NCBI GenBank assembly: GCA_024641335.1
Contig: JAHEDG010000012.1
Span: forward strand, 1-64,000
DNA length: 64,000 nt
Direction of reading: 5' to 3'
DNA from: Candidatus Zixiibacteriota bacterium
GTDB lineage: Bacteria; Zixibacteria; MSB-5A5; UBA10806
Position 1 is the first letter of the stretch; each line of letters opens with the position of its first letter. The notes below the pieces were generated by a model that saw nothing but the letters and a program-made list of their open reading frames with translations, made no database searches and was not told the DNA's origin. Made by a program: the position numbers and the translations under genes. Below, in pieces: positions 8,156-49,745 of the stretch.

Positions 8156-8266
8156 CTAATTGAAAGGAACGAAAATAATCGTTAACACGGCTAAGAAGAC
8201 CCCGATAATGACGGTCAGCATTCCCGCGCTCATTTTCCTGGGGTTTTCCTTGATTACGATCATCAT
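8156..8266 (-). CDS. 36-aa single-TM microprotein
   Basis: MMIVIKENPRKMSAGMLTVIIGVFLAVLTIIFVPFN; SD AAAGGGAG upstream of tandem ATG; one hydrophobic helix. The longer track ORF (to 8398) runs through the upstream inverted repeat and is unlikely. Confidence 0.6.
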   Translation of the reverse strand: MMIVIKENPRKMSAGMLTVIIGVFLAVLTIIFVPFN

Positions 8267-8289
8267 CACAAGACTCCCTTTAAAAATTC

Positions 8290-8362
8290 CATGGGAGTGG
8301 CGGAGGGGGATCCCCGAATCATTCGGGGGGGCTGGTTGGTGGTCCAGCACACCACTCCCATG
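8290..8362 (-). ncRNA. Candidate structured leader RNA (multibranch: 11-bp closing stem plus two internal hairpins)
   Basis: Perfect CATGGGAGTGG (8290-8300) / CCACTCCCATG (8352-8362); internal CCCCGAA-TCA-TTCGGGG (8312-8328) and GCTGG...CCAGC (8331-8348). Confidence 0.5.
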
Positions 8363-8629
8363 TTTTGCCCTACTTCTTTTCGCCTTCGAACTATACATTT
8401 TGCAAGAATGATGCCAATATTACCATAATTGCCTGTTATTATCAGACTCTTAATGTTTCTTGTCAAATTTGTTGATATAAAGGCAGTTATGAGACATGGC
8501 CCGAGAGGATTATTTCGGGAAGCAAAAGGATGGAGGATAGAAATCCCGCATAGAAATGCGGTATGAAGTTATAATGTGCAATAAAATGCAGCTACAATAA
8601 TCTGTTCGGTCGTGAAAAGCGTGATATGA

Positions 8630-49652: not shown

Positions 49653-49745
49653 CGGAAGGGGGAGGAATCGAACCTCCCGCGCCCGGGAACACCGACCGCC
49701 AACGGCTTTGAAGGCCGCAGGGGCCACCAGACCCCATCCTCTTCC
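49653..49745 (-). tRNA. selC: tRNA-Sec (anticodon TCA)
   Basis: Minus GGAAGAGG AT GGGGTC TGGT GGCCCC T GCGGC CTTCAAA GCCGT ... long variable arm ... GGAGG TTCGATT CCTCC CCCTTCC G: 6-bp D stem, UCA anticodon, long variable arm, GGAAG acceptor, discriminator G; CCA not encoded. Confidence 0.92.

Follow-up and report, generated by a model that had tools for sequence, protein, structure and literature searches.

A candidate family of small structured RNAs with a conserved, putatively anti-Shine-Dalgarno strand in Zixibacteria

Introduction

SgrS/SgrT is a dual-function RNA, which joins base pairing to a small ORF. VcdRP is likewise of dual function, with a protein of 29 aa (PMC8672173). The alpha-r14 or "cuckoo" sRNAs are alpha-proteobacterial RNAs of three hairpins with variable stems, which carry an ultraconserved C-rich anti-Shine-Dalgarno (anti-SD) motif CCUCCUCCC in unpaired regions of each hairpin; one of them, NfeR1, silences the ntrB translation start through seed pairing (PMC10746234). 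In Campylobacter jejuni, the RpoN-dependent CJnc230 (FlmE) has a putative anti-SD single strand, CCUU; it is processed from the flgE mRNA and has been described only in Campylobacter species (PMC11187230).

Here we analysed a stretch of 64,000 nucleotides from Candidatus Zixiibacteriota bacterium (the window; positions 1 to 64,000 of contig JAHEDG010000012.1), in which a preliminary description had placed a riboswitch-like leader 5′ of a 36-aa membrane microprotein. The element resembles the alpha-r14 sRNAs in being a small RNA with a conserved unpaired C-rich anti-SD motif and variable stems, but differs from them in its closed three-way junction with one CCCCC(C)UCC, its sigma-54 promoter and its occurrence in Zixibacteria. 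Since it has no Rfam match, it is not an alpha-r14 member by the tests run. CJnc230, compared with the element by description only, differs in its processing from the flgE mRNA and its CCUU anti-SD. Similar to VcdRP and SgrS/SgrT, a base-pairing RNA and a small ORF share one predicted transcript, although base pairing is putative here, and the ORF, placed 3′ of the RNA, is confined to one order while the element spans the phylum.

Results

Structure of the element in the source genome

Direct reading of the minus strand confirmed the perfect 11-bp closing stem reported previously, formed by CATGGGAGTGG (8362-8352) and CCACTCCCATG (8300-8290). Addition of a U-G and a G-C pair extends this stem, P1, to 13 pairs (8362-8350/8302-8290), with CATGGGAGTGGTG as its 5′ strand (8350-8362) and, by direct reading and folding, CGCCACTCCCATG as its 3′ strand (8290-8302). 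The 5′ strand shows compensatory T-A/C-G/A-T changes, and folding gave a mean pairing probability of >0.99 for P1. The two enclosed hairpins are also present as described, namely P2 (GCTGG/CCAGC, 8348-8344/8335-8331; 8331-8348 in full), which is variable in sequence with compensatory changes, and P3 (CCCCGAA-TGA-TTCGGGG, 8328-8312), the inner pairs of which swap across families (from G-C/A-U/A-U to C-G and the like). Between P3 and the 3′ strand of P1 lies the C-rich strand AUCCCCCUCC (8302-8311, minus strand) with the invariant core CCCCCUCC, a putative anti-SD seed, which folding predicts to be ~84% unpaired, compared to an average of 42% over the whole RNA. A U-run 3′ of P1 (8282-8286, minus strand) resembles a weak terminator or attenuator remnant. 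Further 3′, the SD GGGAGT (8278-8273) precedes ATGATG (8266/8263) and is indeed complementary to ACTCCC (8298-8293) within P1.

The minimum free energy is -50.3 kcal/mol, with a z score of -1.9 against dinucleotide shuffles, so the stability of the single sequence is only modestly unusual. We judge the element to be real not from its folding energy but from its single copy per genome, its 96% identity in another genus and its class-wide covariation.

Distribution across the phylum

A first covariance model, built from five family sequences, matched 105 of the 134 class genomes with practically one copy each. The second model, built from 52 sequences, found the element in 106 of the 134 Zixibacteria genomes (~80%; E values of 1e-5 to 1e-16), the searched class being the entire searched phylum. 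The source genome has a single copy, and there is one locus per genome throughout except in G099, which has two. The second G099 copy (L083, G099:C26) is without a sigma-54 box and stands in another context; it is possibly a pseudo-copy or contamination. This single-copy pattern disposes of a MITE/REP repeat, the alternative named in the preliminary description, for which many intergenic copies would be expected. In all four other searched genomes of the source family the element has the same position, in the gene order TPR-protein gene, element, microprotein and uvrC as far as the stretches extend, and its identity between genera reaches 96% over 81 nt.

A pattern scan of 85,462 species returned nearly exclusively Zixibacteria records. 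The rest, from Streptomyces, Planobispora and similar organisms, were G/C-rich chance matches as judged from their sequence. Pattern matches labelled Calditrichota, Ignavibacterium or Bacteroidetes resemble ordinary Zixibacteria-type members, and loci L158 and L173 share coordinates with the class members G066 and G025. Among viral contigs the family pattern had 0 matches, and a phage origin was rejected. The element was not found in families f4, f9, f18 and f19, including near-complete genomes, and more sensitive settings recovered no divergent RNA there. RpoN is present in near-complete genomes of these families (e.g. G015, G083, G124 and G126).

The absence of a known class also held. Searched with Rfam 15, the source element matched nothing at the gathering score and only chance snoRNA models at E<=10, and no family matched any of 18 homologous loci. 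An open-access literature search for small or noncoding RNA in Zixibacteria found no description of such an RNA. Elsewhere in the window, a selenocysteine tRNA (Rfam RF01852) lies at 49654-49745 on the minus strand.

Conservation and covariation

Covariation among the homologues is strong and class-wide. In the 52-sequence alignment, which was fitted to the covariance model, 94.8% of pair cells are standard and 15 of 25 pairs show two-sided changes, with a covariation score of 0.348 compared to 0.136 for shuffled and <=0.062 for slid versions. An independent MAFFT/RNAalifold analysis of 38 dissimilar members gave the same three-way junction with compensatory changes at 8 of 19 pairs, and recovered the closing stem, P3 and part of P2. 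One closing-stem position is U-A, C-G or A-U depending on the family. In f8, L119 and L126 another inner structure takes the place of the two hairpins while P1 and the C-rich strand are kept; because both persist in this way, we regard P1 and CCCCCUCC as the constant core.

The motif CCCCCUCC is a conserved single-stranded C-rich anti-SD motif present in all collected members. It occurs in all 90 distinct elements collected by a pattern containing the C-rich core, which partly imposes its invariance there, and in 52 of 52 model-collected sequences, which are free of this pattern choice although the model was trained on motif-bearing sequences. The P1 strand is equally conserved at loci without a following SD. 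In f10-type families (e.g. L081, L084 and L095), an extra conserved single-stranded GAGTTGTTAGAGAT lies 5′ of the closing stem, and TTGTTR occurs within 45 nt upstream of 22 of the 90 elements.

Promoter, terminator and gene context

The sigma-54 -24/-12 consensus is GG-N10-GC. A promoter of this type, GGCA-TCATTC-TTGC, lies upstream of the source element on the minus strand (8402-8415), with a predicted transcription start at ~8390. GGYA-N6-TTGC occurs within 110 nt upstream of 75 of the 89 distinct loci, compared to 0 of 175 control windows, and sits 29-64 nt 5′ of the closing stem; the scan of the upstream regions found no recognisable sigma-54 box at some homologues (e.g. L077 and L129). 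RpoN was found in 125 of 134 genomes, the 79 near-complete ones all included, so that the consensus box and its sigma factor together argue for a sigma-54-dependent promoter. Upstream of this box, a sigma-70-like TTGACA-N17-GATAAT (8466-8438, minus strand) is possibly a second promoter of the element unit.

A U-run (>=5 T of 7 directly after P1) is found at 69 of 81 loci outside the source order and at 5 of 8 inside. The downstream genes differ by family and include histidine kinase (HK) genes, a gene for what we take, from reading the sequence, to be a carbohydrate deacetylase-like protein, and unrelated or opposite-strand genes. In several large families, two PAS-type HK genes follow ~80 nt downstream, and a -10-like core, [GT][CT]CGATA, lies between element and HK at 45 of 89 loci compared to 8 of 176 controls, which suggests a separate promoter for the HK genes. 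A sigma-28-like promoter with TMAA-N14-16 before this motif fits at 15 loci and at 0 of 176 controls. A motif of this type, TMAA-N15-GYCGATA, separates the RNA from the HK gene pair in many Zixibacteria families, with L216 (7926-8003) as an example. The element's own promoter signal, the U-run after P1 and the differing downstream genes point to an independent small RNA gene of ~100-115 nt.

The microprotein of the source order

The source order comprises nine genomes, from families f1 and f2. Here an SD follows the RNA and leads into the ORF of a microprotein, which is 34-36 aa long and has a single hydrophobic helix. In the window the ORF occupies 8156-8266 on the minus strand, giving 36 aa from the ATG at 8266, whereas its homologues start at the ATG corresponding to 8263 (35 aa, MIVIKENPRKMSAGMLTVIIGVFLAVLTIIFVPFN); the SD GGGAG was read directly at 8274-8278. 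A full-length homologue stands directly 3′ of the element in eight of these genomes, and in the ninth it is cut by an assembly gap. The hydropathy maximum is 2.8. In comparable pairs dN/dS is ~0.1 (G001/G002, dN 0.08 and dS 0.86; G005/G006, 0.16 and 2.35), a rough value as each comparison spans ~100 nt. Such purifying selection indicates a real gene, and the membrane microprotein of the preliminary description is upheld. A profile search of the class gave convincing matches in the source order only, beside the element; those in other orders were weak, mostly short stretches within long reading frames, and were rejected. With a conserved small ORF under purifying selection on the predicted sRNA transcript, the RNA and microprotein of this order form a probable dual-function sRNA/mRNA, as judged from proximity and the shared promoter only.

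Discussion

Comparative evidence supports the predicted structure, its single-copy conservation, the promoter and the microprotein. We consider it fairly probable that the element represents an undescribed family of small structured RNAs, which act in trans as sigma-54-induced, Hfq-independent sRNAs occluding ribosome-binding sites, with a dual function at the level of one order. We infer transcription, termination, trans action, SD targeting and dual function along the following lines. The RNA would be transcribed from its own sigma-54 promoter under sigma-54-activating conditions and, in most of the phylum, would end at P1 and the U-run terminator, giving ~100-115 nt. The long P1 together with P2 and P3 may keep the invariant (C)AUCCCCC(C)UCC strand accessible as a seed, which would pair in trans with G-rich SD regions without Hfq and repress translation, much like the anti-SD sRNAs of alpha-rhizobia. 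In the source order, the terminator would be weakened, and transcription that starts at the sigma-54 promoter would run on into the microprotein of 34-36 aa.

An SD (GGAGG) with a G-rich spacer has (C)AUCCCCC(C)UCC as its complement, which with the C also covers a start codon. We favour trans occlusion of ribosome-binding sites because the alpha-r14 sRNAs work through C-rich anti-SD strands, and a putative one is found in CJnc230. Hfq (PF17209) was undetected in 134 of 134 Zixibacteria genomes in a search with working positive controls, so such an sRNA would act without Hfq. Apart from the RNA itself, the perfect 12-nt complement GGAGGGGGGATG turns up at about background level only, with no conserved target, and a universal target fully complementary to CAUCCCCCCUCC was rejected, as none rose above background. 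In the family, GGAGGGG-N-ATG is 1.7 times as frequent as its reversed control, an excess that is non-specific because ordinary SD usage would also give it.

The preliminary description had proposed that closing stem and anti-SD helix are mutually exclusive, and this holds for the source sequence, where the ACTCCC/SD pairing forms once P1 is forced open; the alternative pairing is not conserved in relatives. A cis-acting riboswitch or thermosensor that controls the microprotein by this competition would fit the position of the element, which precedes the microprotein in all nine order genomes, and a similar alternative pairing is seen in L036 and, more weakly, in L037 and L041. A leader of this kind would also share with SD-sequestering riboswitches a multi-helix RNA 5′ of an SD and an ORF. 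However, L039 and L040, which have AAGGAAG-like SDs, lack the pairing, and opening P1 costs 13-21 kcal/mol by folding in all nine genomes, so that no conserved mutually exclusive expression platform was found. The element lies in the 5′ UTR of a gene it might regulate in the source order only; unlike SD-sequestering leaders, it is phylum-wide and most of its homologues are without a dependent ORF. Moreover, an SD switch cannot account for the conservation of the P1 strand, which is equally strong at loci lacking an SD. We thus regard cis control of the microprotein as highly improbable. The U-run after P1 and the HK gene pair ~80 nt downstream in many families would instead suit a structured leader or attenuator of each lineage's downstream gene (HKs in many families, the microprotein in the source order), with P1 and the U-run as its regulated terminator and the C-rich strand as the sensor of a ligand or protein. 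Yet the downstream gene is completely different between families, the -10-like core suggests that the HK genes have a separate promoter, and no conserved anti-terminator was seen, which makes this reading quite unlikely.

A protein- or ligand-binding site could explain the extreme conservation of one strand equally well. The main rival of trans occlusion is a protein-titrating RNA, a CsrB/CrcZ-like sponge under sigma-54 control whose exposed C-rich strand would titrate an RNA-binding protein of the poly-C or ribosomal-protein type. A single invariant unpaired motif on a rigid scaffold, the lack of a conserved target complement and the absence of Hfq, by which another partner may be needed, are all in its favour. 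Known sponge RNAs, however, carry many motif copies compared to one per RNA here, and the motif is an exact anti-SD; we hold titration to be rather unlikely. The exposed strand may also mimic the 3′ end of 16S rRNA, which we take to be GAUCACCUCC for comparison with the C-rich strand. The element would then regulate translation initiation globally, across a phylum without Hfq: induced through sigma-54, it would be a decoy or competitor either for strong SDs or for a ribosomal or initiation factor, and one order would have fused it to a membrane microprotein. This we consider unlikely.

Anti-SD sRNAs and dual-function RNAs are already known kinds, and what is new here is the architecture, the phylum-wide conservation in single copy and the lineage-specific fusion to a microprotein. 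One copy of a structured RNA with a strongly constrained core, which belongs to no Rfam family, has been kept across an uncultured phylum. As a trans-acting sRNA it would open a way to study how RNA regulates genes where Hfq is not detectable, and would tie such regulation to the sigma-54 network. In one lineage, it looks as if an apparent standalone sRNA has become the 5′ part of a microprotein mRNA.
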